In this document: positions 9,910-26,403 of the stretch, piece by piece
How positions within the stretch are numbered: position 1 is the stretch's first letter
Layout of the letters: the number at the start of each line of letters is the position of its first letter
NCBI GenBank assembly: GCA_902784465.1
Contig: CACZUZ010000022.1
Coordinates: 1 to 36,262, forward strand
Source of the DNA: an uncultured Bacteroidota bacterium
Lineage (GTDB): Bacteria; Bacteroidota; Bacteroidia; Bacteroidales; P3
Length of the DNA stretch: 36,262 bases
Direction: 5' to 3'
The notes under the pieces: model-generated
The model's input: the letters and a program-made list of their open reading frames with translations, nothing else
Databases searched by the model: none
What the model was told of the DNA's origin: nothing
Translations under genes and position numbers: made by a program

Positions 9910-9990
9910 ATGATAGACAAAGAACTGGTGAAAAAAAACAGTCAATCAGATGAGGAAATCGAGATAATTGTCCGGAGTGATGACGGATAG
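9910..9990 (+). pseudogene. 26-codon remnant, possibly the start of a lost AAA+ ATPase gene
   Basis: ATG at 9910 begins MIDKELVKKNSQSDEEIE and stops after 26 codons, overlapping the 3' end of the minus-strand ATPase gene by 45 bp. From memory, one Bacteroidales AAA_14/DUF4143 ATPase subfamily starts with a similar M-I-x-K-E-L-[VI]-K sequence. A promoter with operator-like dyads lies 22 bp upstream. I read it as the start of a deleted ATPase gene; chance is a real alternative. Confidence 0.3.
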
Positions 9991-11076
9991 GGGAATGTTT
10001 CCATACCCTTTTGTGAACTCGCTTGGAGTTTTTATTGCGGCTTTTCGGGGGTTCCACTTCATCTCGAAAAGCTGGAACGTGCCACCGCTTTCTTCGATGA
10101 AGTCGATTTCCTGCTGCGTGGTGGTTCGCCAGAAATAGTAGTTGGCGCGGTGTCCACGGTTATGGTTGTACTTGAGGCGTTCGCTGACAATGAAATTCTC
10201 CCACAACACCCCTATGTCGTTGCGTAAAGACGGCGGGTTAAAGTTTTGTATGATGACATTGCGGATGCCATTGTCGTAAAAGTATATCTTTTTCCCCTTC
10301 TTAAGTTCGGTACGCATATTGCGACTGAGCGCAGGAAGACGGAATACGATGTAGCATTTCTCCAACAAGTCGACATATTTTTCGACCGTCTTTACATCGG
10401 AGCCTACAGCCTGTGACAATTCGTTGTAAGACACCTCACTTCCCACCTGTAATGCCAAGGCCACCAGCAGTTTTTCGATTAGCACCGGTTTACGCACCCC
10501 TTCCATCGACAGCAGGTCCTGATACATATAGCTGCCCGAGAGGTTGGCGAGAACATCGTCACTATCGTCAATATTGTTTATCACATCAGGATATGACCCA
10601 TATACGAGCCTTGACTCCAGCAGCTGACGTGTGCTTACATATCCCATATTGTCATTTATCTCCTGTGTGGAAAAGGGGAAGAGCTGATACTCAAATTTGC
10701 GTCCAGTGAGTGGTTCGTTCAACGTCCCTTGCAGGAGAAATGAGGATGAGCCAGTGATAAGAAGTTGCACATCGGGCATATTGTCGGTGATAAGTTTCAT
10801 TGTGAGTCCCGCACCGCGTAGCCGTTGGGCCTCGTCCACCATAACGATGCGGTGGCTGCCGACCAGCCTCCGGAGTTCACCAAGGTTTGCTCCTTCGAGA
10901 AGACCTCTCATCTCAGGATCGTCGCAGTTGAGGATCAGAACATCATCGTGTGAGGACAATATTTGACGGAAAAGGGTGCTTTTCCCAACTTGTCGGGCGC
11001 CAACAAGCACAATAGCCTTCCCACAGAACATTCGCTTCTCAATGATTTCCTGTAGCTTACGTTTCAATAATTCCAT
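9946..11076 (-). CDS. AAA+ ATPase with DUF4143 / PD-(D/E)XK-like C-terminus (ATPase 1)
   Basis: 376 residues from the ATG at 11074-11076; a longer reading begins upstream of the probable transcript start. N-terminal AAA_14 domain: Walker A VLVGARQVGKSTLF (about 30-43), Walker B HRIVMVDEAQRL, sensor-type QLLITGSSSFLLQG. The middle holds the winged-helix-like DUF4143 region. The C-terminus contains QQEIDFIEESGG followed by FQLFEMKWNPRK, the E-I-D ... E-x-K spacing of a PD-(D/E)XK fold. The family is widespread and multi-copy in Bacteroidales; its role is not established, with defence or DNA-processing suggestions only. Leader of about 17 nt, promoter at 11101, two 33-bp palindromic units at the -33 box. 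Confidence 0.88.
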   Translation of the reverse strand: MELLKRKLQEIIEKRMFCGKAIVLVGARQVGKSTLFRQILSSHDDVLILNCDDPEMRGLLEGANLGELRRLVGSHRIVMVDEAQRLRGAGLTMKLITDNMPDVQLLITGSSSFLLQGTLNEPLTGRKFEYQLFPFSTQEINDNMGYVSTRQLLESRLVYGSYPDVINNIDDSDDVLANLSGSYMYQDLLSMEGVRKPVLIEKLLVALALQVGSEVSYNELSQAVGSDVKTVEKYVDLLEKCYIVFRLPALSRNMRTELKKGKKIYFYDNGIRNVIIQNFNPPSLRNDIGVLWENFIVSERLKYNHNRGHRANYYFWRTTTQQEIDFIEESGGTFQLFEMKWNPRKAAIKTPSEFTKGYGNIPLSVITPDNYLDFLI

Positions 11077-11100
11077 AATAAGAGTATTTAAATCACAATG

Positions 11101-11108
11101 CAAAGATA
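11101..11108 (-). promoter_or_regulatory. -7 element of ATPase 1
   Basis: TATCTTTG on the minus strand, within the 13-bp string TTGTATCTTTGCA shared by all three ATPase promoters. A TTTG -33 box lies 18 bp upstream (11127-11130) and falls inside the palindromic repeat. The ATG is 24 bp downstream. Confidence 0.75.
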
Positions 11109-11121
11109 CAAAAAAAATGCC

Positions 11122-11187
11122 TAATCCAAAAAATCATATATATTTTTTGGATTATAATCCAAAAAATTATACCAATTTTATGGATTA
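11122..11187. repeat. Two tandem 33-bp palindromic units upstream of ATPase 1
   Basis: Units 11122-11154 and 11155-11187 each begin TAATCC and end GGATTA, separated by a 21-bp AT-rich core. In the first unit the arms extend to a 12-bp perfect inverted repeat (AATCCAAAAAAT). They abut head to tail with no spacer and overlap the -33 box. A 33-bp period is about three helical turns. Best read as a dimer-binding operator pair. Confidence 0.85.
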
Positions 11188-11398
11188 GCAAAAAACTGTT
11201 TGGTCAGAAAGGCAGCGCCGGCAGCAATGATTGTGCCGAGAAGTCCATCCACTCAAGAAGGCTGTCATCGTGACAAGAGACGAGGAGTCAACCATAAGTA
11301 AAGATGGATTGTCAATTGAGATAGTTCCAGTATGGAAATGGCTTTTGCTTCAACATTTCACAGGGATAGAGTAGAGCCAACTCATAATGCTGGTATTG
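11188..11398. other. Degenerate gene remnants, no intact gene
   Basis: On the minus strand several short stretches read like protein but are broken by stops: one gives YELALLYPCEMLKQKPFPYW, another GLLGTIIAAGAAFLTKQFF ending at the AT-rich repeats. No intact ORF, promoter or RNA is visible. This looks like decayed sequence downstream of the truncated phosphatase. Confidence 0.4.
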
Positions 11399-11557
11399 TC
11401 AACTTTCTAGCATGATGCCCGTGGCAAATGCGATCAACAGACGTGGGTACTCAAACCTCTCTCCCACCCCTGCTTCCTCCGCCATACGACGCATCACAAA
11501 CTCCGCCGTAACACTGCGACAGATATTGCCGTGGCAGACAAAAAGAATCTTCTTCAT
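11399..11557 (-). pseudogene. Truncated low-molecular-weight protein tyrosine phosphatase
   Basis: 52 codons starting MKKILFVCHGNICRSVTAEF. This is the N-terminus of LMW-PTP, including the complete P-loop C-x5-R-S (CHGNICRS, nucleophile Cys8, Arg14). After about 36 residues similarity ends and a stop follows, whereas the family is about 150-160 residues and needs a C-terminal catalytic Asp (DP motif), which is absent. The ATG abuts the TAA of the upstream lipoprotein gene (TAAATG), so the intact gene would have been translationally coupled to it. As it stands it should be inactive. Confidence 0.7.
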
Positions 11558-11992
11558 TTACTGCTTCAGAAGAGTCAGAATCTGGATTATGGAGGACACC
11601 GTCTGAGCTTTTTGCTGGATGTTGCTAGCGGTGACTCCATCTAATCCTGTAGCATTCAAGAGATTATTGGTAATCGTGGTTGCTGTGGCAGCTGATATGA
11701 GGCCTGCGCCCCCAGTCACCAGACCGGAGACGAAAGATTTTTTGTAGCGTGCATCACCATTGCTGGACTTCAGACCGTTGTAGGCAGTGATGACTACAAT
11801 CATGTTGCTCAAGTCGTTAGGGTTGGTGATGGCAAGTGTGCCAGCTTTCTTGCTTTTATTGAGGGCGATGAGGGCTTGTCCGCAGGCGGCTCCCGAAGCA
11901 GCGGCTGTAGTGTTGGTGGCACCGCCAGTCACTCCACATGATATCATTGCAAATGTGGCAACAAACATCATTACTAAACTGAATTTCTTCAT
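11558..11992 (-). CDS. Small lipoprotein, function unknown
   Basis: 144 residues from the ATG at 11990-11992, chosen because it starts an SPII signal (MKKFSLVMMFVATFAMISCG, Cys19). The mature part is rich in Ala, Thr and Asn (GVTGGATNTTAAASGAACGQ), then has a KKSFVSGLVTGGAGLISAAT segment that could be amphipathic or membrane-inserting, and a Gln/Leu-rich C-terminal helix. No family recognised. It has its own promoter at 12071-12078 and is directly followed by the truncated phosphatase. Confidence 0.75.
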   Translation of the reverse strand: MKKFSLVMMFVATFAMISCGVTGGATNTTAAASGAACGQALIALNKSKKAGTLAITNPNDLSNMIVVITAYNGLKSSNGDARYKKSFVSGLVTGGAGLISAATATTITNNLLNATGLDGVTASNIQQKAQTVSSIIQILTLLKQ

Positions 11993-12070
11993 AAAATCAA
12001 TTTTTTTGTTTATAACTTTTTTACTGTTTGTTAATTCAATACGTGCTGTCTGTTGATTCATAAGCAAAAG

Positions 12071-12078
12071 CAAATATA
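12071..12078 (-). promoter_or_regulatory. -7 element for the small lipoprotein
   Basis: Plus-strand CAAATATA, i.e. TATATTTG on the minus strand, 79 bp upstream of the lipoprotein ATG. Divergent from the pruA promoters. Confidence 0.55.
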
Positions 12079-12110
12079 CATTTTTTTTACAATATTTTTG
12101 AAAAAATGTG

Positions 12111-12156
12111 TAACTTTGCAACGCATTACAAAAGGTAACAACCTCTATTATCTTTG
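12111..12156 (+). promoter_or_regulatory. Candidate pruA promoters (two -7 elements)
   Basis: TAACTTTG at 12111-12118 and TATCTTTG at 12149-12156 both match TAnnTTTG. The second lies 45 bp before the pruA ATG. Neither has a perfectly spaced TTTG -33 box, so which one is used is open. Confidence 0.5.
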
Positions 12157-12200
12157 CAACAAACAAATAAACAATATTTTAAACAATAACTACTATTTTT

Positions 12201-13892
12201 ATGAACAACATTCTTTTTTCTTTTCCCAAACCTGAGAACGAACCCGTCCTCGGTTACGCTCCCGGCAGTCCCGAACGCGCCAAGATCCGCCAGGCCCTCG
12301 ACGAACTCTACAACATGGAGTATGAGATTTGCCCCATCATCGGCGGAAAGAAGGTGAAAACCAAAGATAGCGGCACCATCGTCATGCCTACCGAGAACAA
12401 GCACGTCCTCGCCAAATACTATAAGGTGGGTGAGAAAGAGGTCAAGATGGCTATCGAGGCCTCGATGAAAGCCCACGAGGAATGGGCCAACACCCCATGT
12501 ATGGAGCGTGCCAGCGTCATGCAGAAGATTGCCACCCTCATCGCCGGCAAATACCGCTGGAAAATCAACGCCGCCACCATGCTCGGCCAGGGAAAGACCA
12601 CCATGCAGGCCGAAATCGACTCCGCTTGCGAGCTCGTCGACTTCCTCCGCTACAACGCCTACTACGCATCACAGATATACAGCGACCAGCCCTGCAGCGA
12701 CAAGGGCACCCTCAACTATGTGACCTACCGTCCGCTCGAAGGCTTCGTCTTCGCCATCACCCCGTTCAACTTCACCTCTATCGCCAGCAACCTCTGCCTC
12801 AGCCCCGTGCTGATGGGCAACACCTGCATCTGGAAGCCCTCCACCACCGCCATGCTCTCCAACTATATCCTCATGGAGATTTACAAGGAGGCTGGTCTCC
12901 CCGACGGCGTAGTCAACTTCCTCCCAGGCAGCGGCGCCCTCATCGGCAAAGTGGCCTTCGCCGACAAGAACCTGGCCGGCGTCCACTTCACCGGCGGCAC
13001 CAAGACCTTCAACGGCTTCTGGAAATCCATCGGCGACAACGTTGCCAACTACCGCACCTATCCCAAGATTGTCGGCGAGACTGGCGGCAAGGACTTCATC
13101 TTCGCCCACAACAGCGCCAACCCCGCACAGGTTGCCACCGCCATTGTCCGCGGCGCCTTCGAGTTCCAGGGTCAGAAGTGCTCGGCAGCCTCACGCGCCT
13201 ACATCCCCAAATCGATGTGGCCCGAGGTTAAGGAGATTGTCGGCAAGATGCTCGACGAAATCAAGGTTGGCGACGTCCGCGACTTCAGCGCCTTCGTCAA
13301 CGCTGTCATCGACGAGGCCTCCTTCGACAACTGCATGAACTACATCGAACATGCCAAGAAGAGCAAAGACGCCGAAATCGTGTTCGGCGGCACTGGCGAC
13401 AAGAGCGTTGGCTGGTTCATCCAACCCACCGTCATCCTGGCCAAGAAGCCCGACTACAAGTCGATGTGCGAGGAGATCTTCGGCCCCATCATCACCATCT
13501 ATGTCTACGACGACAAGGACTATGAGAAGACCCTCCACCTCTGCGACGAGACATCGCCCTACGCCCTCACAGGTGCCATCTTCTCGAGCGACCGCAAGGC
13601 CCTGCACCTGGGTGCCGACATCCTCAAGTATGCTGCTGGCAACATCTACTACAACGACAAGCCCACCGGAGCCGTCGTCGGTCAGCAGCCCTTTGGCGGC
13701 GCCCGCGCCAGCGGCACCAACGACAAGGCCGGCAGCTACCTCAACCTCATCCGCTGGACCTCGCCGCAAGCCATCAAGGAGACCTTCGACCCCGCTTACA
13801 ACTACAGCTATCCCTTCGTAAGCAACGAGGACAACGCCTACGAAGCCCCCGCGGCAAAGAAAGCCCCTGCAAAAAAGGCAGCAAAAAAATAA
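12201..13892 (+). CDS. pruA: L-glutamate gamma-semialdehyde dehydrogenase (P5C dehydrogenase)
   Basis: 563 residues, full length for the single-function class. It oxidises glutamate-gamma-semialdehyde to glutamate with NAD+, the second step of proline catabolism (also reached from ornithine). NAD site: PFNFTSIASNLCLSPVLMGN and the FTGGTKTFNGFW region. General-base Glu is in VGETGGKDFIF and the nucleophilic Cys in EFQGQKCSAASRAY. The C-terminal Asn/Gly segment GQQPFGGARASGTNDKAG is conserved. The last residues form an Ala/Lys tail (PAAKKAPAKKAAKK), a low-complexity addition beyond the enzyme fold. No putA-type proline dehydrogenase gene is adjacent. Confidence 0.95.
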   Translation: MNNILFSFPKPENEPVLGYAPGSPERAKIRQALDELYNMEYEICPIIGGKKVKTKDSGTIVMPTENKHVLAKYYKVGEKEVKMAIEASMKAHEEWANTPCMERASVMQKIATLIAGKYRWKINAATMLGQGKTTMQAEIDSACELVDFLRYNAYYASQIYSDQPCSDKGTLNYVTYRPLEGFVFAITPFNFTSIASNLCLSPVLMGNTCIWKPSTTAMLSNYILMEIYKEAGLPDGVVNFLPGSGALIGKVAFADKNLAGVHFTGGTKTFNGFWKSIGDNVANYRTYPKIVGETGGKDFIFAHNSANPAQVATAIVRGAFEFQGQKCSAASRAYIPKSMWPEVKEIVGKMLDEIKVGDVRDFSAFVNAVIDEASFDNCMNYIEHAKKSKDAEIVFGGTGDKSVGWFIQPTVILAKKPDYKSMCEEIFGPIITIYVYDDKDYEKTLHLCDETSPYALTGAIFSSDRKALHLGADILKYAAGNIYYNDKPTGAVVGQQPFGGARASGTNDKAGSYLNLIRWTSPQAIKETFDPAYNYSYPFVSNEDNAYEAPAAKKAPAKKAAKK

Positions 13893-13913
13893 AAGTTGAA
13901 CATTAACATCTGA

Positions 13914-13969
13914 AAAGTGAGAGCAAAGACCAAGAACATCCTTCAAGGTCTGCTCTCACTTTCCTTTTT
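13914..13969 (+). terminator. Intrinsic terminator/attenuator between pruA and cotH-like gene
   Basis: Perfect 12-bp arms AAAGTGAGAGCA (13914-13925) and TGCTCTCACTTT (13951-13962), with an inner AGACC/GGTC extension, followed by CCTTTTT. It ends only 4 bp before the GTG start of the next gene, so the hairpin could also affect access to that start. Confidence 0.75.
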
Positions 13970-13972
13970 CCG

Positions 13973-15550
13973 GTGAAACACAAACTCTTTCTTTTCCTGC
14001 TGGCCTTTGCATCCTGTGCCGCCGCCCAGCAGCCTTTCTCGTCGAGCCTGCCCATAGTCATCATCGTCACCGACCAGGACTCGGCGACAGACTCCCCTAT
14101 CGCCATTAACGACAGCGTCAAGATTGGTGCCACGATGCAGATACTACAACCCAATGGCTCCGGCGTCGTCACCCTTGCCGACACAACCAATGCCGACCTC
14201 GTAAACTATAGTGGTCGCATCGCCATCAAGACCCGAGGCCATACCTCGTTGCTGAGCAACAAGAAGTCGTACCGCCTGGAGACACGCAAAGCCGACGATA
14301 TATCCAACAACAATGTGCCATTGATGGGAATGCCAAAGGAGAACGACTGGATTCTGAATGCTTTGTACAATGACCCAAGCTACATCCGCGATGCGCTGAC
14401 CTACAACCTTGGCCGTCGCACCGGCCGTTATGCACCACGCACACACCACTGCGAACTATTCCTCAACGGCGTCTATCAAGGCATATATATGCTCTCAGAA
14501 AGCATCAAGGTCGACAAGAACCGCGTGAACATCAAGAAGATGACTGCCGACGACACCAGCGGAGAGGCTCTGACCGGAGGCTACATCTTCAAGGCCGACC
14601 ACCCCGACAAGGATGAGCCCATAGCATGGAGTACCCCCTCGCTCGCAGGCGACGTTGAGGTCACCTACATCCACCATTACCCGAAACCGGAAGACATCAC
14701 ACAACAGCAGCATGACTATCTGTACGGCTATTTCTCTCACTTCCTGACCGCCATGCGGCACCGTGACACCGTGTCGCCCAACAACTACACCACCTTCATC
14801 GACCTCGAATCCTTCGCCGACTACATGCTGGTCAGCGAACTGGCCTCCAATTCCGACAGCTACCAGTACAGCACCTACTTTCACAAGAACCGGGGCGGCA
14901 AGATATGCGCCGGACCTCTCTGGGACTTCAACCAGGCCTACGGCAACGACCCCAAAGGGCGGGACGGATACGACGTATGGCAGTTCGACAACGGCAGCAA
15001 TACCGGAACCTCATTCTGGAAAGTACTCTTCTCTCGGCCGCCGCTTCATGACAGGATGGTAAACCGCTGGCAACAACTTACCGACAATGGTCCTTTGGCA
15101 CTCAACAGCATCATGACGCTCATCGACTCCCTGTCGGCCACTATTAGCGAAGCGGCATTACGCGACAAGGAGCGTTGGGGACACAATTCCGATTTCAGCC
15201 AGAGTATAGACTCGCTAAAGAACTGGTTGACCATGAGACACGCATGGATGGACAAACAACTGTCAAGCAGCAACTTCATCGGCCCTCAGTTGTCAGCCGA
15301 CGATTGCCAAGTCTCCTTTTATCCCAATCCCACTCGCGACCTGCTCCACATCGAGTTGAGCGAAGAGGCCGCGTCCAAGGGCTACTCTGTAGTTGTTGTC
15401 AATCCTGTCGGATCCAAGGTCATGAGCCTCACCAACTTGAAAAACAGCCTTACGATAGATCTCAGCCTGATGCCATCGGGAGTATACACGATGCGACTCA
15501 CCACCGCTGACGGTCCACAGTCCATCCACAAAATCATCAAAATAGACTGA
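13973..15550 (+). CDS. CotH kinase family protein with T9SS sorting domain
   Basis: 525 residues with a GTG start, since no ATG is better placed. Signal peptide about 1-18 (MKHKLFLFLLAFASCAAA). The CotH domain (about 60-370) contains GRIAIKTRGHTS, KKSYRLETRK, NDWILNALYNDPSYIRDAL, CELFLNGVYQGIYMLSE, and the metal-site-like GPLWDFNQAYGND. The last ~75 residues form a type A T9SS C-terminal domain starting SFYPNPTRDLLHIEL and ending SGVYTMRL...IHKIIKID, which targets the protein across the outer membrane. CotH proteins of spore coats are protein kinases; secreted bacterial homologs are often linked to cell-surface or polysaccharide functions. The substrate here is unknown. Confidence 0.88.
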   Translation: MKHKLFLFLLAFASCAAAQQPFSSSLPIVIIVTDQDSATDSPIAINDSVKIGATMQILQPNGSGVVTLADTTNADLVNYSGRIAIKTRGHTSLLSNKKSYRLETRKADDISNNNVPLMGMPKENDWILNALYNDPSYIRDALTYNLGRRTGRYAPRTHHCELFLNGVYQGIYMLSESIKVDKNRVNIKKMTADDTSGEALTGGYIFKADHPDKDEPIAWSTPSLAGDVEVTYIHHYPKPEDITQQQHDYLYGYFSHFLTAMRHRDTVSPNNYTTFIDLESFADYMLVSELASNSDSYQYSTYFHKNRGGKICAGPLWDFNQAYGNDPKGRDGYDVWQFDNGSNTGTSFWKVLFSRPPLHDRMVNRWQQLTDNGPLALNSIMTLIDSLSATISEAALRDKERWGHNSDFSQSIDSLKNWLTMRHAWMDKQLSSSNFIGPQLSADDCQVSFYPNPTRDLLHIELSEEAASKGYSVVVVNPVGSKVMSLTNLKNSLTIDLSLMPSGVYTMRLTTADGPQSIHKIIKID

Positions 15551-15558
15551 TGAAATAA

Positions 15559-16884
15559 CTACAGGAATTGTGTATGGTATACCGGCAGGCATGTCGTCTG
15601 TCCGTCCTGATGTTGATCCTTGGTGTAAAGAAGTATGCGTTGGCTGATACGTGAGGAGAACTTCTCGCAAAAAACATCTAGCGACTTGTGGGTGTTATAT
15701 CCGGACGATTTCACCTCGATTGGTACAATTTTATTGCCACGGGAGAGCAGAAAGTCTATCTCATAGCTGTGCTTATCATCTTTGGGGAATGTATAATAGA
15801 ACAATCGGTTTCCGCTCGCTGAGAGCATCTGGGCAATTAGATTCTCATATACATAGCCCAAGTTTGCTGCCAGCTTGTCACTAAGCAGTTGCTGATAGAT
15901 AATATTCTCTGTATAATCCTTGTTCCAAAAACTCAAAGTCACAAACAAACCGGTATCTGCCAGAAAAACCTTATATCGAGATACATCTCGGTTCAACGAC
16001 ATTCCAATATTAGGATCCGTGCAATGGTAACAAAACTGTGTAGTCTTACTTTCCGACAATATTTGCATCAGCTCGACTTTTTTGTCATTTGATACATCTC
16101 CAATGGCACTATATGGAACAAAACGTCCTACAGACCTACTCAACTGGGACGGAATAGACATAAAGAGTTGTCCTGCACCCCCAGACGGGTCGATTTTCAG
16201 GAAGTCTTCATCATACAAACGGATGATGTTTCTTTTGGTTTCATCAACCTTTTTGAAGTTGTTGGTAGACAAATAGGTGTCAACTGATTGAGGCATTCCT
16301 CCCACAAGCATATACAGGCGTAACTCTCTCATCTTTTGACGATGGACAGTTCCAAGCGGAATCTTTTTCTCATAGGACATTCTTAGCAGCGGCACAGAGG
16401 ACTCGTCTCCCAATGCCCATCGAAATTCCTCGTAATCCATGGGATGCATCATCACACGCTCCTCTTCGCTAGGGATTGTGATATTCTGTGTATTCTTCCT
16501 TATACTTATTAGCGACCCTGTCTCGATGTAGTCGTAACGTCCGTCGGCAACCAAGTATTTAATTGCTTGCCGAGCGTTAGGACATTTTTGAACCTCATCA
16601 AATACTATGAGCGACTTACGTTCGAAAAGCTGTACATTATATGTATTCTGCAAGGAGATGAACAGGTAATTCAAATCAGAAAGGTCGTCAAACAGGGCAA
16701 TTGTGGACGGGGATGCTCGGTTGAAATCTATAAGAATATACGATTTATACTCCTTCTTTGCGAAATTCTCTACAATTGTGGATTTACCCACACGTCGCGC
16801 ACCTTCAACCAAGATGGCGGTTCTCCCATTTTGCTCACTCTTCCATTCAAGCAATCTGTCATATAGTTTACGTTTGAATATCAT
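15559..16884 (-). CDS. AAA+ ATPase with DUF4143 / PD-(D/E)XK-like C-terminus (ATPase 2)
   Basis: 441 residues from the ATG at 16882-16884 (MIFKRKLYDRLLEW); an upstream alternative would start before the probable transcript. Walker A ILVEGARRVGKSTIV, Walker B KSLIVFDEVQKCP, then YIETGSLISI. DUF4143 helical region about 190-330. The C-terminus has YEIDFLLSRGNK and IVPIEVKSSGYN, a clear E-I-D ... E-V-K PD-(D/E)XK pattern that probably keeps metal ligands. Sequence differs strongly from ATPases 1 and 3, so these are not recent duplicates. It ends 8 bp from the convergent CotH gene. The promoter has the shared 13-bp core and a 32-bp repeat array. Confidence 0.88.
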   Translation of the reverse strand: MIFKRKLYDRLLEWKSEQNGRTAILVEGARRVGKSTIVENFAKKEYKSYILIDFNRASPSTIALFDDLSDLNYLFISLQNTYNVQLFERKSLIVFDEVQKCPNARQAIKYLVADGRYDYIETGSLISIRKNTQNITIPSEEERVMMHPMDYEEFRWALGDESSVPLLRMSYEKKIPLGTVHRQKMRELRLYMLVGGMPQSVDTYLSTNNFKKVDETKRNIIRLYDEDFLKIDPSGGAGQLFMSIPSQLSRSVGRFVPYSAIGDVSNDKKVELMQILSESKTTQFCYHCTDPNIGMSLNRDVSRYKVFLADTGLFVTLSFWNKDYTENIIYQQLLSDKLAANLGYVYENLIAQMLSASGNRLFYYTFPKDDKHSYEIDFLLSRGNKIVPIEVKSSGYNTHKSLDVFCEKFSSRISQRILLYTKDQHQDGQTTCLPVYHTQFL

Positions 16885-16909
16885 CGCATTTTTTATTTGA
16901 AAAACAGTG

Positions 16910-16917
16910 CAAAGATA
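16910..16917 (-). promoter_or_regulatory. -7 element of ATPase 2
   Basis: TATCTTTG on the minus strand inside TTGTATCTTTGCA; TTTG -33 box at 16937-16940 (19-bp spacing), which lies in the first repeat unit. The ATG is 25 bp downstream. Confidence 0.75.
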
Positions 16918-16927
16918 CAACTTTTTC

Positions 16928-17040
16928 CGAATCCCCCAAAATTTTTTTTGCGATTTTACCGATTCCCCCGAAATTTTTTTTGCGATTTTACCGAATTCCC
17001 CGAAATTTTTTTCGCCATTTTACCGAATCCCCCGAAATTC
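16928..17040. repeat. 32-bp direct repeats, 3.5 copies, upstream of ATPase 2
   Basis: Units at 16928-16959, 16960-16991, 16992-17023 and a half unit at 17024-17040. Each starts CGAATCCCCC (one or two changes), followed by GAAATTTTTTTT and GCGATTTTAC. No spacers; period 32 bp, close to three helical turns. The first unit covers the -33 box. The last half unit ends 21 bp short of the 3' end of the next gene (17062). Confidence 0.9.
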
Positions 17041-17061
17041 ACGAGTGTGGAGTGTACCGGT

Positions 17062-17967
17062 TTATTCCTTGTCGAACAGTGCGAAACGTTGACGGAGGAG
17101 TTGGATGGCTTCGATGTTGCGGGGCACCTGTAGGTCGAGGATGCCGTCGCGGAGGCCTATCATACGGCCATTTTTCACTGCGCTGAGCTTGTCGTAGGGC
17201 GATGCCTGGCAGAAACGTACACTATCCTCGGCGCGTATCAGTATGAAGTCGGGGTCCGACTGCATCAGGGCTTCGAGACTGTAGCTCCATCCCTCGCTGT
17301 CGGAAGCTATGTTGTAGCCGCCTGCCATATCGATAATCTCGTTGATGAACGTGTTGCCACCTGCCGTGAAGTTGCCACCGCTGCCGAAGCCGACGACATA
17401 ATATACCGTCGGACGCGACTCGTCGGGGATATAGTCCTGACCCTTCATCATCTCTTCCATCCTGCCGCGAAGCACAGCGTTGAGGCTGTCGGCACGGTCG
17501 GGTCTGCCTATCAAGCCACCTATCTTGGAAATGTTTTCATACAGTCCGTCGAAATGCGGCTTCTCGATGACGCATACCAGCGGCACACCCATGTCGGCAA
17601 ACTGTTTCACGACCTTCTGCGGCACCATCGAGCCACTGATGATAAGGTCGGGATTGCACGACAACACCTTCTCGATGTTGAGGTTACTGATGCCCCCGAT
17701 GTTCTCGATGCGGGCCGCCTCGGGCGGATAGACACAAAACTCGGTGCGTCCCACCAACAGGCTGTCGGCCCCGAGGGCGAAAATAATCTCTGTCACCGCC
17801 GGCGACAGGGAGACGACCCTTTGCGGATTGTCAGGCACCCTGACAACGACGCCGTAATCGTCGGTGTATTCTGTAGTGTTGTCAGACTTCTGGGATGTCG
17901 GGTTGTTGCAAGAGCTGAAGCACACCAGCAATGCCACAAACGCAACGGACAATATCTTTTTCATCAT
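17062..17967 (-). CDS. Periplasmic-binding-protein-type lipoprotein (BtuF/FecB-like metal-chelate receptor)
   Basis: 301 residues. An SPII signal ends FSSC (Cys21-22). The mature part shows the helical-backbone metal-receptor fold: RVVSLSPAVTEIIFALGADS near the start of lobe 1, VGRTEFCVYP, NIEKVLSCNPDLIISG, then the long backbone helix and lobe 2 (YYVVGFGSGGNFTAGGNTFI, MQSDPDFILIRAE). The family delivers cobalamin, siderophores or haem to BtuCD/FecCD transporters. No permease or ATPase gene is adjacent, so the partner is elsewhere. It is 1.2 kb from a divergent B12-riboswitch gene, which makes cobalamin the more attractive ligand; this is inference. Confidence 0.85.
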   Translation of the reverse strand: MMKKILSVAFVALLVCFSSCNNPTSQKSDNTTEYTDDYGVVVRVPDNPQRVVSLSPAVTEIIFALGADSLLVGRTEFCVYPPEAARIENIGGISNLNIEKVLSCNPDLIISGSMVPQKVVKQFADMGVPLVCVIEKPHFDGLYENISKIGGLIGRPDRADSLNAVLRGRMEEMMKGQDYIPDESRPTVYYVVGFGSGGNFTAGGNTFINEIIDMAGGYNIASDSEGWSYSLEALMQSDPDFILIRAEDSVRFCQASPYDKLSAVKNGRMIGLRDGILDLQVPRNIEAIQLLRQRFALFDKE

Positions 17968-17984
17968 CTTAATGTTTTACAGTA

Positions 17985-18016
17985 AAGAGGGGATGCCGCA
18001 GGCGACATCCCCTCTT
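17985..18016 (-). terminator. Hairpin between gapA and the binding-protein gene
   Basis: Perfect 11-bp stem AAGAGGGGATG (17985-17995) / CATCCCCTCTT (18006-18016) with a GC-rich 10-nt loop. The T-tract on the minus strand is weak, so it may be a partial terminator or an mRNA-stability hairpin between two co-directional genes. Confidence 0.6.
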
Positions 18017-18069
18017 GTGAGTTATTTGTTGTCTCCACAGTATGAGAAGACTTAGTGCTACCACAATGA

Positions 18070-19077
18070 TTAGAGCAGTTTTGCCAGCTTGGCGGCGAGG
18101 TCGCCGACGCGGGTGCTGTAGCCCTTCTCGTTGTCGTACCAGCTGACAATCTTGATGAAGTTGCCATCCATGACCTGGGTCAGGAGAGCGTCGAAGATGC
18201 TGCTGTGGGTGTTGTCGATGATGTCGATGCTGACGATGGGCTCTTCGACATACTGGAGGACACCCTTCATCGGGCCTTCAGCGGCCTCCTTGATGGCGGC
18301 GTTGACTTCCTCCTTGGTGACGTTGCGGTTGAGCTCGGCGGTGAGGTCAACGACAGAGCCGTCGGGAGTGGGGACGCGCATGGCGAAGCCATCGAGTTTG
18401 CCTTTCAGCTCGGGGATAACCAGACCCACAGCCTTGGCGGCGCCGGAGGAGGTGGGGATGATGCTGACGGCAGCGGCACGGGCACGACGGAGGTCGCTGT
18501 GCGGCTGGTCGAGAATCTTCTGGTCGTTGGTGTAGCTGTGAACGGTGTTCATCAGACCACGCTTGATGCCGAACTTGTCGTTCAGAACCTTGGCGACAGG
18601 AGCCAAGCAGTTGGTGGTGCAGCTGGCGTTGCTGACGAGCTGCATATCTTTGGTCAGCACATTGTCGTTGACACCCATAACCACAGTGGCGTCGACGTCG
18701 TCGGCCTTGCCAGCGGGAACGGTGAGGATGACCTTCTTGGCACCAGCGTTGATGTGCTTCATCATCTGCTCGCGTTTCTTGAAGAGACCGGTGGACTCGA
18801 CAACGATGTCAACACCAAGCTCCTTCCAGGGGAGGTTCTGCGGGTCGCGCTCGGCGTAGATTTTAACCTTCTTGCCGTTGACCACAAGGCAGTCGCCCTC
18901 AGCATGCACTTCACCGTCGAAGTTCTCATGGACAGAGTCATATTTGAACAGATATGCCAGGGTGTCGGCACTGGTGAGGTCATTGATTGCAACGATTTCG
19001 AGCTCGGGATGGGCGAGCATTGCGCGGAAAGACATTCTTCCGATTCGGCCAAAGCCGTTGATAGCTACTTTTGCCAT
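18070..19077 (-). CDS. gapA: Type I glyceraldehyde-3-phosphate dehydrogenase
   Basis: 335 residues, standard length. A glycolytic NAD-dependent enzyme oxidising glyceraldehyde-3-phosphate to 1,3-bisphosphoglycerate in the cytoplasm. N-terminal Rossmann motif INGFGRIGR; INDLTSADTLAYLFKYDS; active site SNASCTTNCLAP with Cys153, and His180 in NTVHSYTNDQ; C-terminal SWYDNEKGYSTRVGDL. A clear promoter lies upstream at 19131-19138. Confidence 0.98.
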   Translation of the reverse strand: MAKVAINGFGRIGRMSFRAMLAHPELEIVAINDLTSADTLAYLFKYDSVHENFDGEVHAEGDCLVVNGKKVKIYAERDPQNLPWKELGVDIVVESTGLFKKREQMMKHINAGAKKVILTVPAGKADDVDATVVMGVNDNVLTKDMQLVSNASCTTNCLAPVAKVLNDKFGIKRGLMNTVHSYTNDQKILDQPHSDLRRARAAAVSIIPTSSGAAKAVGLVIPELKGKLDGFAMRVPTPDGSVVDLTAELNRNVTKEEVNAAIKEAAEGPMKGVLQYVEEPIVSIDIIDNTHSSIFDALLTQVMDGNFIKIVSWYDNEKGYSTRVGDLAAKLAKLL

Positions 19078-19130
19078 ATTGAATTGTTATTTAATTAATT
19101 AATGTTAATTTTCCTTAAAGAATGGTTTTA

Positions 19131-19160
19131 CAAATATACGCACCTTTTTGATTCGGACAA
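19131..19160 (-). promoter_or_regulatory. gapA promoter
   Basis: -7 TATATTTG (19131-19138 on the minus strand) and -33 TTTG (19157-19160) with 19-bp spacing, 54 bp upstream of the gapA ATG. It is close to the divergent promoter of the riboswitch gene, about 30 bp away, so the two could interfere. Confidence 0.7.
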
Positions 19161-19189
19161 AAAAAAACTTGCAAAATATTTTTTTTGTG

Positions 19190-19197
19190 TATTTTTG
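19190..19197 (+). promoter_or_regulatory. -7 element of the B12-riboswitch transcript
   Basis: TATTTTTG matches TAnnTTTG. The expected start point falls at about 19200-19205, exactly where the riboswitch P1 stem begins. A weak -33 (CTTG, 19168-19171) has 18-bp spacing. Confidence 0.65.
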
Positions 19198-19199
19198 CA

Positions 19200-19382
19200 G
19201 CCGATTTGGTCGCCCCAAAAAGCGTCAAAAGGGAATCGGGTGAGAGTCCCGGACAGTCCCGCTGCTGTGAGTTCAATAACTTGCATGTCAACACAATAGC
19301 CACTGCATACCGCCACAGGTATATGGGAAGGCTGACAGGCAAGGAACGAGTCAGAAGACCTGCCAAATCTGAAAAAATCGGC
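19200..19382 (+). promoter_or_regulatory. Cobalamin (adenosyl/methylcobalamin) riboswitch aptamer
   Basis: Conserved strings in order: AATCGGGTGAGAGTCCCGG, ACAGTCCCGCTGCTGTGA, the B12-box region AGCCACTGCAT (19298-19308), GGGAAGGC, and GCAAGGAACGAGTCAGAAGA followed by CCTGCC. P1 is closed by GCCGATTT (19200-19207) with AAATCGGC (19375-19382). It should repress the downstream gene when cobalamin is abundant. Confidence 0.95.
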
Positions 19383-19412
19383 CCGCTTTCGAGGAAAAAG
19401 TAACCGATGGTC

Positions 19413-19466
19413 ATGAACTGTGTATCGAGAATTGAGAGCTTTGCGGTTCGTATTTCAACAGTTCAT
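19413..19466 (+). promoter_or_regulatory. Expression-platform hairpin of the riboswitch
   Basis: ATGAACTGT (19413-19421) pairs perfectly with ACAGTTCAT (19458-19466), 30 bp after the aptamer and 83 bp before the start codon. There is no T-tract after it, so control is more likely at translation or by a longer-range refolding than by simple termination. Confidence 0.5.
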
Positions 19467-19549
19467 CATTGCGATGCCATCCCACCTTTTCTTTTACGGC
19501 CTGCCGATACTTGTATTGATTGTCTAACCAATTTATAAAAGTATCAAAA

Positions 19550-21853
19550 ATGATGATTAAAAAACTATCTTATCTATTTGCCGCACTACTGTTTGCATCA
19601 GCAGCTACGGCTCAACCCCAGAAAACCATCTCCTTTCCGGCCAGCGACATCCAGTATTGGGTTGGATCTGGCAGCAATTCAGCTGTCGTCATCATAGCAT
19701 GGGACGACGTGGCGACACCCACGGCTTTGGCATGGGGTGTGCACTGGAATGGCAACGCCTCGGCTCTCGACCTCATCGACAGCATTCAGGCTTACGACAG
19801 CCGCTTCAGCAACGGTTCCTCAGCCACTGTTGCAAGTGCCACCTACAACGACGGGACGGTAACTCTCAGCTCCCCCACCAACTGGTGGTGCTATACCGTG
19901 AACGGCTCTTGGGCCGATGTGGGCTACACCGGTTACACGATGAGCAACGGCGACGTCATGGAGCTTAGCGCCGACTGCATGTTCGGCATGACCGAAGCAA
20001 CAGCAGCAACAAATCCCAACAATACGGGCGACATCCCCACCGAGGCCACCATTGCCGCCAGCGACATACTCTACTGGGTTGGCGAAGGCAGCAAACAGGT
20101 TGTTATGGCCGTCAACTGGGCCGACACCGCCCTCGCCTGGGGCTACCGCTTCAACGGCGACAAGACCGTCGCCGACATGATGAGCGACATCGCCGCCGCC
20201 GACCACCGCTTCAGCTATACCATGAACGGCGGCCTCCTCAGCGACATCAACTTCGTCGCCGGCAGCCGCACCCTCTCCATCACACCCGGCAACTACTGGG
20301 GCAGCACCAACAACGGCTTCATGGATATGGGTATGGGCCAGACTCTCAACAATGGTGACTTCGAGAAATGGGCCGACCCCGCCACCGGCGTCATCGTTGA
20401 CAGCACCTACGACGAGCAATATTCCTACTGGTGGTACACCTACGTCTACCCCATGACCATCTATCCCGTCAGCGTACCTGCACCCGTTGTCCCCGTCCCT
20501 GATGAAGCCACCATCGATGCTTCCGCCATCGAGTACTGGGTTGGCGAAGGCAGCAACCAGGTTGTTATGGCCGTCAACTGGGCCGACACCGCCCTTGCTT
20601 GGGGCTACCGCTTCAACGGCGACAAGACCGTCGCCGACATGATGAGCGACATCGCCGCCGCCGACCCACGTTTCAGCTACACCATGAACGGCGGCTACCT
20701 CGGCGACATCAACTTCGTCGCCGGCAACCGCACCCTCTCCATCACACCTGGCAACTACTGGAGCAGCACCAACAACGGCTTCATGGATATGGGTATGGGC
20801 CAGACCCTCAACAATGGTGACTTCGAGAAATGGGCCGACCCCGCCGCCGGCGTCATCGTCGACAGCACATACGACGAGCAATATTCCTACTGGTGGTACA
20901 CCTACGTCTATCCCATGACCATCTACGCTGCCGGCCAGCCTGAAGGCATGGGCCCCTTCTGCGGCATTGTTGGAACAGAGGGCTGCACTGCCGTCAAGTA
21001 TGACGACAGCCGCATCAAGGCCTGGGCTACCGCCTGCACCATCGTCCGCGGCTCGCAGAACCTCACCAACCCCGACGCTCCTGAAGTAACCTACGGCGAC
21101 GAAACGCAAGCTGTTGGTCCCTGCACAAGCAACAATTTGAACGTCGTCAGCCTCGGCGATGGCGGCTACGCCACCCTAACCTTCGAGAAGCCTATCGCCA
21201 ACGGCAACGGCTACGACTTCGCCGTCTTCGAGAACTCCTTCGACGACTACTTCCTCGAACTGGCTTTTGTCGAGGTCAGCTCCGACGGTCAGCGCTTCGT
21301 CCGCTTCCCCGCCACCAGCCTCACACAAACGGCTCGCCAGATTGTCAGCAGAGTCGATGCCACCTACATCAACAACCTCGCCGGCAAGTTCAAGACCGGT
21401 TTCGGCACTCCCTTCGACCTTGACGAACTGCGCGACAGCACCGCAATAGACATCAACAACATCACCCATGTACGCATCGTCGACGTTGTCGGCAGCATCG
21501 ACCCGCAGTATGCCACATACGACGCCTTTGGCCATATCGTCAACGACCCCTTCCCCACCATCAGCCATAGCGCCGGATTCGACCTCGACGGCATCGCTGT
21601 CATGAACCAGAAGAGCGAGGGCATAGACGATGTCGCAAGTCAGAACGTAATCGTCTTCCCCAACCCTGTCGTCAACGTGATGAACATCACCGTCAACGAG
21701 GAGATGACTGCTCAGCTGTTCGACATGTCGGGCCGCAACGTCATGACCGTCAGCCTCCACAATGGCAACAACAGCGTCAGCATGGAAGGCCTCAGCAATG
21801 GCGTCTACCTGCTCCGCACACCTGCCGGCGTGCAGAAGATTGTGAAAAGATAA
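19550..21853 (+). CDS. B12-riboswitch-controlled T9SS-secreted protein with three repeated domains
   Basis: 767 residues from the ATG at 19550; the adjacent ATG at 19553 is equivalent. Signal peptide 1-21 (AASAATAQ). Three tandem copies of a domain of about 130-155 residues follow, each opening YWVG[SE]GSxxxV and containing LAWGxxxxG...DxxxxIxAxDxRFS; copy 1 is diverged, copies 2 and 3 are almost identical. Next is a domain of about 230 residues (GPFCGIVGTEGCTAVKYDDS, LGDGGYATLTFEKPI, NGYDFAVFENSFDDYFLELA, VDVVGSIDPQYATYDAFG, FDLDGIAV) that I recall from cell-surface proteins near cobalamin-uptake genes. The final ~70 residues form a T9SS type A sorting domain (VIVFPNPVVNVMNITVN...GVYLLRT). 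Many Trp/Tyr residues suit a ring-stacking ligand. A secreted corrinoid-binding role is inferred from control and location, not proven. Confidence 0.8.
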   Translation: MMIKKLSYLFAALLFASAATAQPQKTISFPASDIQYWVGSGSNSAVVIIAWDDVATPTALAWGVHWNGNASALDLIDSIQAYDSRFSNGSSATVASATYNDGTVTLSSPTNWWCYTVNGSWADVGYTGYTMSNGDVMELSADCMFGMTEATAATNPNNTGDIPTEATIAASDILYWVGEGSKQVVMAVNWADTALAWGYRFNGDKTVADMMSDIAAADHRFSYTMNGGLLSDINFVAGSRTLSITPGNYWGSTNNGFMDMGMGQTLNNGDFEKWADPATGVIVDSTYDEQYSYWWYTYVYPMTIYPVSVPAPVVPVPDEATIDASAIEYWVGEGSNQVVMAVNWADTALAWGYRFNGDKTVADMMSDIAAADPRFSYTMNGGYLGDINFVAGNRTLSITPGNYWSSTNNGFMDMGMGQTLNNGDFEKWADPAAGVIVDSTYDEQYSYWWYTYVYPMTIYAAGQPEGMGPFCGIVGTEGCTAVKYDDSRIKAWATACTIVRGSQNLTNPDAPEVTYGDETQAVGPCTSNNLNVVSLGDGGYATLTFEKPIANGNGYDFAVFENSFDDYFLELAFVEVSSDGQRFVRFPATSLTQTARQIVSRVDATYINNLAGKFKTGFGTPFDLDELRDSTAIDINNITHVRIVDVVGSIDPQYATYDAFGHIVNDPFPTISHSAGFDLDGIAVMNQKSEGIDDVASQNVIVFPNPVVNVMNITVNEEMTAQLFDMSGRNVMTVSLHNGNNSVSMEGLSNGVYLLRTPAGVQKIVKR
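20072..20464 (+). repeat. First copy of near-identical 393-bp intragenic repeat
   Basis: Matches 20534-20926 at a constant offset of 462 bp with only scattered substitutions. It encodes domain copy 2 of the secreted protein. Confidence 0.9.
20534..20926 (+). repeat. Second copy of near-identical 393-bp intragenic repeat
   Basis: Domain copy 3. Differences from copy 2 are few and mostly conservative (for example KQ to NQ, HRFS to PRFS, GLLSD to GYLGD), pointing to a recent duplication or gene conversion. Confidence 0.9.
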
Positions 21854-21890
21854 CAATCTCTTTTTAATTAAACACTCATTATCAGTTCCC

Positions 21891-21930
21891 GAACTCCGAC
21901 TTCACCATGAGGTCGGAGTTCATTTTTTTT
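21891..21930 (+). terminator. Intrinsic terminator of the riboswitch gene
   Basis: Perfect 10-bp stem GAACTCCGAC (21891-21900) / GTCGGAGTTC (21912-21921), 11-nt loop, then A and eight T. It ends 5 bp before the convergent ATPase 3 gene. Confidence 0.92.
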
Positions 21931-21935
21931 AAAAA

Positions 21936-23129
21936 TCACAATAGGTTTTCCAAATCGCCGTTGAAGAACACCTCCAAAGGCATAGCAGGACCTCCCACAA
22001 TAAGGGAATGAGTAGGATGAAAGCGTTCTCTGAAGGTAGCCAGGCCACTGTTCATCTGGCGGCTACCGCTCTTCACTTCGATAGCCACAGTCTTGTCTCC
22101 ACGAGTAATCACAAAGTCCACTTCCTCGTTGTTCTCACGCCAATAATACAATTGGTATTCCAACTCATCTGCCTTGTCGAGCAAGTGACACCCCACAGCC
22201 GACTCCACCCATCTCCCCCACAACTGCGGATTGGTGTAAGCCTTCTCAAACGTCATACCTTCACTCATCACCGTCAGCAATGCATTGTTGTACACCTGCA
22301 ATTTGGGAATAGACTTGTATTTACGCGACATGCCAACCGTATATTTTTGCAAACCGGTAAGCAGCTTGCTTTCACCTAACACCTCCATGTAGTTCACCAA
22401 GGTAGTTGCATTTCCGGCATCCTGCAGCATGCCCAACATCTTGTTATACGCAAGCAATTCACCAGAATAGCCGCAGCCGAGTCTGAAAAGCTGGTGCATC
22501 AGTGCAGGCTTGTAGATGTAAGTTGTCTGTAACACATCTTTCTCGATGGCCGGTGCCACAATGGCTTCTCGCATATACCTCCGCCAACGGCTCTCGTTGG
22601 GCAGGTAGCCAGCACTCCCCGGATAACCACCGAAATAGACATACTGGTTGATGTCCCAGCCGAAAGCATCATGCATCTCCTTGAACGACCAATGTCCCAT
22701 CGGTATCAACTCGAAGCGTCCTGCCAATGACTCTGTCAGACCTTTTTTCAGCAGTAGTCTCGACGAACCAAGCAAAATCACCTTCAAATTCACATCGTTA
22801 AAGGTATCCGCATCCCATTCTTTCTTTACTTGCTCGCTCCAGTTGTCAATCTTATGCACCTCGTCGATAGCGAGTAGAAACTCTTTGCTACCAGAGAACC
22901 GCATACTCGACCGAGCTTCCTCCCACCGAGCGGCAATCCACTCGTTATCATCTGGAGTGACAGCGTCGGCATTAAAGTAAAGTGACGGCATCGAAACCTT
23001 CTCTAAGAGTTGTTTCACCACTGTTGTCTTTCCAATTTGACGGGGACCTGCAACCACTTGGATTGTCTTCCTCGGCTCTTGCAACCTGGAAATCAACTCG
23101 TTTATTTGTCCTCTTACTATCATAACCAT
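21936..23129 (-). CDS. AAA+ ATPase with DUF4143 / PD-(D/E)XK-like C-terminus (ATPase 3)
   Basis: 397 residues if started at the ATG at 23127-23129 (MVMIVRGQINELISRL); the ATG at 23121-23123 is equally possible. A longer reading to 23147 would overlap the -7 box and is rejected. Walker A QVVAGPRQIGKTTVV, Walker B EFLLAIDEVHKID, then VILLGSSRLLLKKGLTESLAGRFE, the typical AAA_14 arginine region. The C-terminus has NNEEVDFVITRGDK and VAIEVKSGSRQ, a PD-(D/E)XK pattern. The promoter has the shared 13-bp core, and a 22-bp repeat array starts 1 bp upstream of the -7 box. Function of the family unresolved; the gene stands alone. Confidence 0.88.
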   Translation of the reverse strand: MVMIVRGQINELISRLQEPRKTIQVVAGPRQIGKTTVVKQLLEKVSMPSLYFNADAVTPDDNEWIAARWEEARSSMRFSGSKEFLLAIDEVHKIDNWSEQVKKEWDADTFNDVNLKVILLGSSRLLLKKGLTESLAGRFELIPMGHWSFKEMHDAFGWDINQYVYFGGYPGSAGYLPNESRWRRYMREAIVAPAIEKDVLQTTYIYKPALMHQLFRLGCGYSGELLAYNKMLGMLQDAGNATTLVNYMEVLGESKLLTGLQKYTVGMSRKYKSIPKLQVYNNALLTVMSEGMTFEKAYTNPQLWGRWVESAVGCHLLDKADELEYQLYYWRENNEEVDFVITRGDKTVAIEVKSGSRQMNSGLATFRERFHPTHSLIVGGPAMPLEVFFNGDLENLL

Positions 23130-23144
23130 CTGTATTTCCGATTG

Positions 23145-23152
23145 CAAAGATA
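23145..23152 (-). promoter_or_regulatory. -7 element of ATPase 3
   Basis: TATCTTTG on the minus strand within TTGTATCTTTGCA, the same 13-bp core as at ATPases 1 and 2. The candidate -33 TTTG at 23175-23178 is 22 bp away. Only about 15-21 bp separate it from the start codon. Confidence 0.7.
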
Positions 23153-23153
23153 C

Positions 23154-23308
23154 AAAAAATCTTCAAATCTCCAACAAAAAATCTTCAAATCTTCAGAGAG
23201 AAATCTCCGATTCTTCATCTAAAAATCTTCAATTCTTCTTCATAAAATCTTCAAATTTCCGTCAGAAAATCTTCAAATCTTTCGAGAAAAATCTCCGATT
23301 CTTATTGC
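23154..23308. repeat. Seven 21-23-bp repeats upstream of ATPase 3
   Basis: Units of mean length 22 bp (23154-23308, 155 bp) fall into two types: A = AAAAATCTTCAAATCT-like, B = GAAATCTCCGATTCTT-like. The order is A A B A A A B. A 22-bp period is about two helical turns. The array starts 1 bp upstream of the -7 box and covers any -33 element. Confidence 0.85.
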
Positions 23309-23437
23309 AACAACCATATATTTACCACTGCCAAAATACAACAACCTCTCGATAATCCGTCGACAATGTTTCGACGGTGATGACTCTTCAATGCTTCTTC
23401 ATGGGGTCTATGTGGGTTCTCTTTTTCTCACATGAAA
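23309..23437. other. Short intergenic stretch with a 7-bp palindrome
   Basis: Contains CCGTCGA (23357-23363) and its inverted copy TCGACGG (23371-23377) around a 7-nt loop. No gene seen. Confidence 0.4.
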
Positions 23438-23656: not shown

Positions 23657-23693
23657 TGTTTTCTTGTTTTTTTCATTAAAAATAACAATTCAT

Positions 23694-24581: not shown

Positions 24582-24690
24582 TGTAGTGTTTTTTTATTTC
24601 GCCTACTCTGTAATGCAGTTTTCGGCCACCCTGCTTGTTTTCTTTATTAGCAAGAAGCTGTTGTCTGGTGAAATAAGGGGCATGAAGAAA

Positions 24691-24780
24691 GGCGTGATTC
24701 TTTCGTCAAAACTGCCTTATTAATACGCTGGGCGTCCGGAATTGCCCTGAAAGTTAATAAGTGCTACGAAAATTCACGCC
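24691..24780. other. Long interrupted inverted repeat in the lipoprotein leader
   Basis: Arms pair in register: GGCGTGA (24691) with TCACGCC (24774-24780), TTCGT with ACGAA, and CTTATTAA (24716-24723) with TTAATAAG (24754-24761). The apical part has a GGGC/GCCC hairpin (about 24730-24746). This gives a stem of three helices with internal loops, about 90 nt. It could be a regulatory RNA structure of the downstream operon or the remains of a small mobile element. Confidence 0.55.
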
Positions 24781-26366: not shown

Positions 26367-26403
26367 CATCGTGAATACAGCATGCGATGTAGTGAGCGAT
26401 AGA

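Follow-up and report, generated by a model that had tools for sequence, protein, structure and literature searches.

The window analysed here, a 36,262-nucleotide stretch of DNA from an uncultured Bacteroidota bacterium (contig CACZUZ010000022.1), contains three scattered genes for ATPases of one family, each preceded by a tandem repeat array of its own, and the question raised by this arrangement is what such arrays do and why they differ from one paralog to the next. In an earlier note on this DNA, it had been proposed that each ATPase, or a domain of it, recognises its own array for autorepression or as an identity mark, in a coded system across paralogs. The arrays upstream of the window ATPases were confirmed to be real and general, and the explanation that we regard as moderately probable is that each is a promoter-registered operator, bound cooperatively by the product of its own gene, with paralog-specific words that limit cross-talk. 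Operator arrays as such are well known; what appears new is the presence of paralog-specific arrays at this family of ATPase-nucleases.

The genes, -7 boxes and arrays of all three loci were found as the earlier note had described them (Table 1). Its assignment of the proteins to the DUF4143 family agrees with their Pfam domains, although an existing name had been missed: all three are full-length matches to PDC-S01, a phage-defence candidate in PADLOC, and like it combine an ATPase with a PD-(D/E)XK domain. The units of array 1 have a palindromic core, GGATTATAATCC, with A/T tracts on both flanks, and their dyad (11/11 matches) has its centre at -46 relative to the TA in the -7 box. Array 3 consists of about six to seven 22-bp units with the core TTGAAGATTTT. 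Against dinucleotide shuffles, arrays 1, 2 and 3 scored z = 11.7, 47.0 and 30.1, respectively, and they have, as claimed, no sequence in common, their consensus units being mutually unrelated on both strands (z -0.3 to 1.7). A shared promoter core does exist, TTGTATCTTTGCA being common to all three window promoters, but TAnnTTTG is the generic Bacteroidetes -7 box and not specific to these ATPase genes. It was found at -90 to -8 in 81% of ATPase promoters and in 30% of background promoters. At the three window genes, the -7 box is separated from the ATG by 15-25 nt, which leaves no space for the open reading frame (ORF) of an antitoxin, and a toxin-antitoxin operon with conditional cooperativity was therefore rejected.

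Table 1. ATPase genes, -7 boxes and repeat arrays at the three loci of the window
Feature	Position	Strand	Description	Basis
ATPase1	9946..11076	-	AAA_14 + DUF4143, subfamily A, PDC-S01	Pfam; PADLOC PDLC04789 E=4e-153
ATPase1 -7 box	11101..11108	-	TATCTTTG	sequence
Array 1	11122..11187	-	2.0 x 33 bp	Tandem Repeats Finder (TRF), 84% match
ATPase2	15559..16884	-	AAA_14 + DUF4143, subfamily B, PDC-S01	Pfam; PADLOC PDLC04786 E=6e-95
ATPase2 -7 box	16910..16917	-	TATCTTTG	sequence
Array 2	16922..17039	-	3.7 x 32 bp	TRF, 90% match
ATPase3	21936..23129	-	AAA_14 + DUF4143, subfamily C, PDC-S01	Pfam; PADLOC PDLC04791 E=9.5e-173
ATPase3 -7 box	23145..23152	-	TATCTTTG	sequence
Array 3	23153..23281, visible to about 23303	-	5.9 x 22 bp	TRF, 77% match

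Array occurrence was determined for 128 family ORFs of at least 300 amino acids from 18 genomes of the order, collected with a profile built up from the proteins of the three window genes; 124 of these had at least 200 nt of upstream sequence free of N and entered the test. These 124 genes were chosen by profile and not individually by Pfam or PADLOC; 23 of them were scanned with PADLOC. Arrays were scored by ungapped autocorrelation of the 250 nt upstream, at lags of 10-60 and against 100 dinucleotide shuffles, and the background consisted of unannotated ORFs of at least 150 amino acids with at least 100 nt free upstream in the same, mostly ATPase-centred stretches, which is not a random genome sample. 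Genes and gene pairs are not independent, and the statistics given here and below are to be read so. An array with z>4 was found at 85 of the 124 ATPase genes compared with 51 of 261 background ORFs, and a lag of 22, 23, 32 or 33 at 72/124 compared with 11/261 (Fisher p=3e-32), in agreement with the expectation that repeat arrays would be commoner upstream of these ATPases than of other genes. Seven of the 11 background ORFs with such lags share an intergenic array with a divergent ATPase, and without divergent-ATPase neighbours the background figure was 4/244. When only significant arrays are considered, one of the four lags was present in 72 of 85 at ATPase genes and in 4 of 41 at background ORFs without a divergent ATPase across the same intergenic region; the closeness of the periods to multiples of the helical repeat, noted earlier for the three loci, thus extends far beyond the window. 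In the window's own genome, these lags were seen at 12 of 22 ATPase genes and 0 of 41 background ORFs. This genome has 33 DUF4143 matches (29 above the cut-off); the 22 genes tested exclude those that were fragmentary, broken or weakly matching and include two genes of the sibling family PDC-S27.

The period of the array follows the protein subfamily. When the labels two-turn, three-turn and none were placed on a tree of 122 proteins of 330-520 amino acids, 24 changes were counted, compared with a mean of 53.8 for shuffled labels, and 0 of 200 shuffles gave a number as low. Subfamily A (370-390 amino acids) has palindromic 32/33-bp units, such as TTTTTTGGAATTGATTCCAAAAAA, so that a dyad recurs every 16 bp; dyads with at least 11/13 matches were present in 13/23, as against 2.4% of shuffles. 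Subfamily B (about 430-450 amino acids) has non-palindromic 32/33-bp units in which, judged by eye, a variable word is often followed by an A-rich stretch with a terminal TGTA that meets the -7 box. The period is 22 bp in subfamily C and mostly 23 bp in subfamilies D and E. From GTDB, 80 subfamily-A relatives in titled genomes were taken, of which L238, L256, L268, L280 and L284 were left out; arrays were found at 43 of the resulting 75, with a lag of 32 in 38, of 33 in 4 and of 12 in 1. By group, arrays were present in 40/60 Bacteroidota, a group that includes L230, titled 'Bacterium' alone, and in 3/15 others, namely two Treponema and one KSB1.

For most arrays, the repeats overlap the gene's own promoter in a fixed register. 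Among 75 arrays with a period of 22-24 or 32-34, 68 had a recognised -7 box, and 41 of these 68 ended within -10 to +15 bp of it. Counted from the TA of the -7 box, the mean dyad score in the subfamily-A promoters of the order set was maximal at -16, -32 and -48, a register in which the operators occupy the -33 and -7 elements and the interval that separates them. The best dyad lay within 1.5 bp of one of these positions in 16 of 21 promoters of the order set, all taken from subfamily-A members in which a -7 box was present, and in 28 of the 50 promoters of the GTDB set that had such a box (26 of its 76 did not); simple counting of positions puts the chance level at about 0.15.

Each ATPase was found to have a private array, as had been suggested. 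Array 2 had no second match in its own genome and one weak match in 20 relatives. Across the family, distant paralogs seldom had similar units, and similarity became frequent only where the proteins were more than about 60% identical, the share of pairs that reached z>4 being 0.01, 0.02, 0.05, 0.05, 0.14, 0.50, 0.67, 0.79 and 0.88 from <20% to >90% identity (pairs below 25% identity were sampled at 15%). Where both of two genes of at least 72% identity carried an array, the arrays were alike in 39/39 pairs (z>=6.6), a test drawn from genes that both bear arrays; in controls, unit z>6 was reached by 9/150 pairs below 35% identity, 19/150 at 35-50% and 52/133 at 50-72%. The upstream flanks were unrelated in 32 of the 39 pairs, with a mean local identity of 0.78 for the array and 0.41 for four-fold degenerate sites, and the median local identity of unrelated arrays was 0.66. 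Because the arrays remain alike in unrelated flanks, and more so than four-fold sites, we conclude that the array accompanies its gene and is more strongly conserved than neutral sites are. The earlier note had named, as outcomes that would speak against its proposal, arrays no commoner here than at other genes or array sequences that do not covary with the protein; the arrays proved to be enriched, private, carried along and alike mainly in close relatives, so that the proposal was not refuted on its own terms.

Array 3 is kept at relatives of ATPase3 in three genomes (G001, G004 and G010; 93-98% identical), is present without ATPase3 at four places (G008, G009, G000:C3 and G005) and has two weak matches in G015. 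In G009, ATPase3 is gone and array 3 is fused to pheT, identified by Pfam, at TGTATCTTTGCA, which is common to both -7 boxes. Five DUF4143 matches were obtained in this genome, the best four at other places; the fifth ranks below these and is thus weaker than an intact subfamily-C gene would score. Since pheT is essential, array 3 probably forms the upstream part of a G009 pheT promoter that is active without ATPase3. A promoter that works without its ATPase fits an operator for repression.

AlphaFold2 models of ATPase1 (predicted local distance difference test, pLDDT, 87.6; predicted template modelling score, pTM, 0.88) and ATPase2 (pLDDT 90.5, pTM 0.90) contain AAA+ and winged-helix parts and an intact PD-(D/E)XK nuclease motif. 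Residues D325, E338 and K340 (ATPase1 numbering), which we take from the pattern to be the PD-(D/E)XK residues, are invariant in 25 aligned subfamily-A proteins. With Foldseek, the best structural match of both models was the archaeal ATPase 2qen, and another archaeal ATPase, SSO1545 (2fna), was third for ATPase1; no PDB sequence match below E=0.3 was found for ATPase1 or ATPase3, and we know of no array at the 2QEN or SSO1545 genes. Further matches, with low to moderate TM-scores, were Orc1/Cdc6 on origin DNA (2qby and 2v1u; E=1.5e-7 to 4e-6, query TM 0.26-0.32) and RuvB, and STAND immune proteins (Avs5, Avs3, NRC4) and Apaf-1 were also among the matches. What the models predict is a winged helix within an architecture resembling DNA-binding AAA+ proteins. 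In subfamily A (19 proteins), unit similarity correlated with the identity of the winged helix at 0.57, of the AAA domain at 0.46 and of the nuclease at 0.41. The partial rank correlation of the winged helix was 0.43 given the nuclease and 0.40 given the AAA domain, and the reverse partials, given the winged helix, were 0.04 for the nuclease and 0.14 for the AAA domain, which is suggestive of a winged helix that tracks the array word in this subfamily.

In the mechanism that we favour, most PDC-S01 genes in these genomes are accompanied by an operator array of their own, which is aligned with the -7 box and usually lies over the -33 region, and the gene product, an AAA+ ATPase followed by a winged helix and a PD-(D/E)XK nuclease, would bind the units via its winged helix. 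With units spaced at two helical turns (22-23 bp) or at three (32-33 bp), the bound subunits would lie on one face of the DNA and could build a cooperative filament, probably dependent on ATP, that shuts out RNA polymerase. Such cooperative autorepression would keep a potentially harmful nuclease scarce and could make abrupt switching possible. The protein subfamily sets the spacing and symmetry of the units, and the recognition word would drift between paralogs, which would let numerous copies share a genome without repressing one another. This mechanism builds on the observed array, its register, subfamily period, private words, carriage and constraint, together with the predicted winged-helix fold. 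The earlier idea of autorepression by the gene's own product fits the enrichment, the promoter placement and the predicted winged helix, and from these we infer cognate binding, cooperativity and repression, as well as insulation as the selective reason and a role in defence.

Several observations weigh against this account. No array with z>4 was present at 39 of the 124 genes, and some subfamilies are mostly bare; among pairs of at least 72% identity, an over-threshold array was seen at one member in 10 and at neither in 7. As to placement, 7/75 arrays had no recognised -7 box, 14/68 extended more than 20 bp beyond it, 13/68 ended more than 15 bp before it, and the dyad of ATPase1, at -46, is 2 bp from the commonest subfamily-A register. 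A contrast between core and spacer within arrays was significant in 8/34, and core-versus-spacer selection was therefore dropped as a main argument. In G009, pheT could alternatively be expressed by upstream read-through. Finally, in a scan with 25-residue windows, AAA residues 61-85 scored 0.45 as against 0.41 for the winged helix, and in subfamily B the correlations were weak (winged helix 0.22, the others 0.17 and 0.17), so that the covariation is not exclusive to the winged helix. Covariation between array and protein is thus partial, and the coded system across paralogs that had been envisaged is only partly supported; the arrays form subfamily types, and it is inside each type that the recognition word differs.

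Tandem sites of about 22 bp beside a winged-helix protein gene, bound by that protein, which thereby represses its own gene, are familiar from iteron-Rep plasmid initiators. The present genes differ in being scattered singly among housekeeping genes (no sign of a replicon or origin was seen, and no dedicated origin search was made), in their AAA+ and nuclease domains and in having periods of 32-33 bp in addition. Archaeal Orc1/Cdc6 proteins have AAA+ and winged-helix domains and a resemblance of fold in common with the window ATPases, and Orc1-2 is described as a transcriptional regulator without initiator function, which binds DNA specifically with the involvement of its winged-helix domain and has an ATP switch (PMC9738581). 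Compared with Orc1/Cdc6 and Orc1-2, PDC-S01 has an additional nuclease domain and the query TM is low; furthermore, private arrays for each paralog are not among the features described for Orc1-2 in the text consulted. The window ATPases are not classed as Orc1/Cdc6 initiators.

Other explanations of the arrays were weighed against cooperative autorepression. It is conceivable, though unlikely, that PDC-S01 is a coded family of DNA-binding immune ATPases, each with an address of its own: every paralog would polymerise on its array into one filament that represses the gene and at the same time keeps the nuclease inactive, the trigger would be an infection in which the array is lost or competed for, and words would diversify so that the copies serve as independent, non-interfering sensors. 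Also unlikely is that the array is less an operator than an identity tag or tether, on which the protein assembles in an inactive state until array loss or competition in infection frees the nuclease, the word denoting self. This would suit the private word of each paralog, the intact nuclease motif, the STAND proteins and Apaf-1 among the fold matches, and arrays of up to about seven units, which exceed the needs of simple repression; the register with the -7 box, however, suits a promoter operator instead.

It was also considered, as an unlikely explanation, that separate trans-acting repressors bind the arrays, as in defence islands controlled by RptR. RptR is reported to repress a defence island via three direct repeats in its promoter (PMC12255303), and repeated putative operator sites lie in a candidate defence promoter here as well. 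RptR is a small, separate regulator whose 6-bp site is conserved from genome to genome (PMC12255303), whereas the candidate regulator here is the effector itself and its word is private. An array that is private and moves with its gene would need one separate regulator per paralog, and none of the eight window proteins near the arrays belongs to a Pfam regulator family (two have no Pfam match) or matches PADLOC at 1e-5. The window genes near the arrays are of the housekeeping type and the window ATPases stand singly; as PDC-S01 is called by profile, a non-defence neighbourhood does not rule out membership.

Beyond the window, at least one DUF4143 match was found in 19 of 21 genomes of a relatives search and in 33 of 61 of a phylum sample. 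Among 20 further members scanned with PADLOC, the best match was PDC-S01 for 16 and PDC-S27 for 4, which brings the scanned total to 23 of 124 (19 PDC-S01, 4 PDC-S27); none of the four is among the 72 array-bearing genes. One PDC-S27 gene (L118:7370-8689) has a twofold GTAACAGCGGTTAC dyad repeat directly downstream of its -7 box, and this sibling family may, judged from that repeat, be similarly regulated. PDC-S01 is reported to be an ATPase fused to a PD-(D/E)XK domain and to rank fourth among the commonest defences of prokaryotes as a whole, with most such candidates awaiting validation (PMC12988326); in rumen genomes, no other individual locus is reported to be as frequent (PMC13356809). 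An AAA_14/DUF4143 gene of Thermus, located downstream of a CRISPR locus, is listed among genes that change their expression when plasmid DNA is present (PMC4406477). The searched literature, as far as its texts were accessible and with few subscription papers or preprints covered, makes no mention of promoter arrays for the DUF4143/PDC-S01 family, and the window copies lie among genes without PADLOC matches.

A further, improbable explanation is that the arrays are recombination or insertion sites that move gene cassettes, with regulation being secondary. The region preceding pheT is a hot spot at which differing PDC-S01 genes turn over (L157:7183-7372, L158:3320-3560, L179, L178 and L177): G004 and G010 have array 3 and ATPase3 there, G002 has a subfamily-A gene together with that gene's array, and G008 has an array 3 remnant followed by a subfamily-A array and gene. 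Arrays also remain without their gene, as would suit such sites. Short array-3 scars stand right before the -7 box of a small gene at L160:5320-5370 (G000:C3) and L162:4820-4880 (G005), suggesting that an ATPase3 cassette was formerly there; the small gene behind the scar in the window's own genome is DUF5674. An orphan 33-bp array at L159:5830-5980 (G005:C14) carries the subfamily-A-like word AAATTTGGGGATT with no ATPase among the adjoining ORFs. In addition, one sequence abuts three different arrays at contig ends (L006, L009 and L016; G000 contigs C38, C52 and C55) and recurs at the end of contig C21; it resembles an IS3-type (insertion sequence) terminal repeat. The sole base-resolved junction, however, joins two -7 boxes and not array units, and recombination would leave the promoter register unexplained. 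Elsewhere, truncated or stop-containing DUF4143 copies adjoin longer ones (G000:C16 ~22000-29000 and G000:C39 ~14000-15600), as is expected under fast birth and death, and, as to an insertion of ATPase2 beside its Peripla_BP_2 neighbour, 0/11 loci of this neighbour in related genomes had a match to any of the three window ATPases, no exact empty site having been worked out.

Neutral tandem duplication of AT-rich promoter DNA is very improbable, for although copies within an array are often near identical and simple repeats are common elsewhere in the window, it is disfavoured by the background control, with these periods at 4/244 promoters of the same stretches, by the tie between period and protein clade, and by conservation that exceeds synonymous sites in unrelated surroundings.

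Other elements of the window were recorded as well. At the Rfam gathering threshold, no RNA element was found in the window except a cobalamin riboswitch (RF00174, 19190-19381, + strand) upstream of the secreted-protein gene at 19520, and this gene (19520-21853) contains an internal 462-bp duplication with 95% matches (20072-20925). Simple repeats of 7-9 bp, mostly within reading frames, occur at 4805-4914, 27127-27203, 27719-27810, 28406-28520 and 33316-33589. An 11/22-bp repeat array, AGTCTAATGTA, lies at 26403-26453, about 90 bp upstream of a reading frame at 26536 that is not an ATPase of the DUF4143/PDC-S01 family.

The paralog-specific promoter array supplies a candidate DNA ligand for each PDC-S01 protein, with a binding specificity that would be readable from the sequence, and the many related AAA+/winged-helix proteins with likely sites would be useful for learning how winged helices recognise DNA. 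PDC-S01 is very common, and the arrays offer a handle on how the family works. They suggest that these candidate defence genes regulate themselves, and that many copies may coexist in one genome as their switches do not cross-react.

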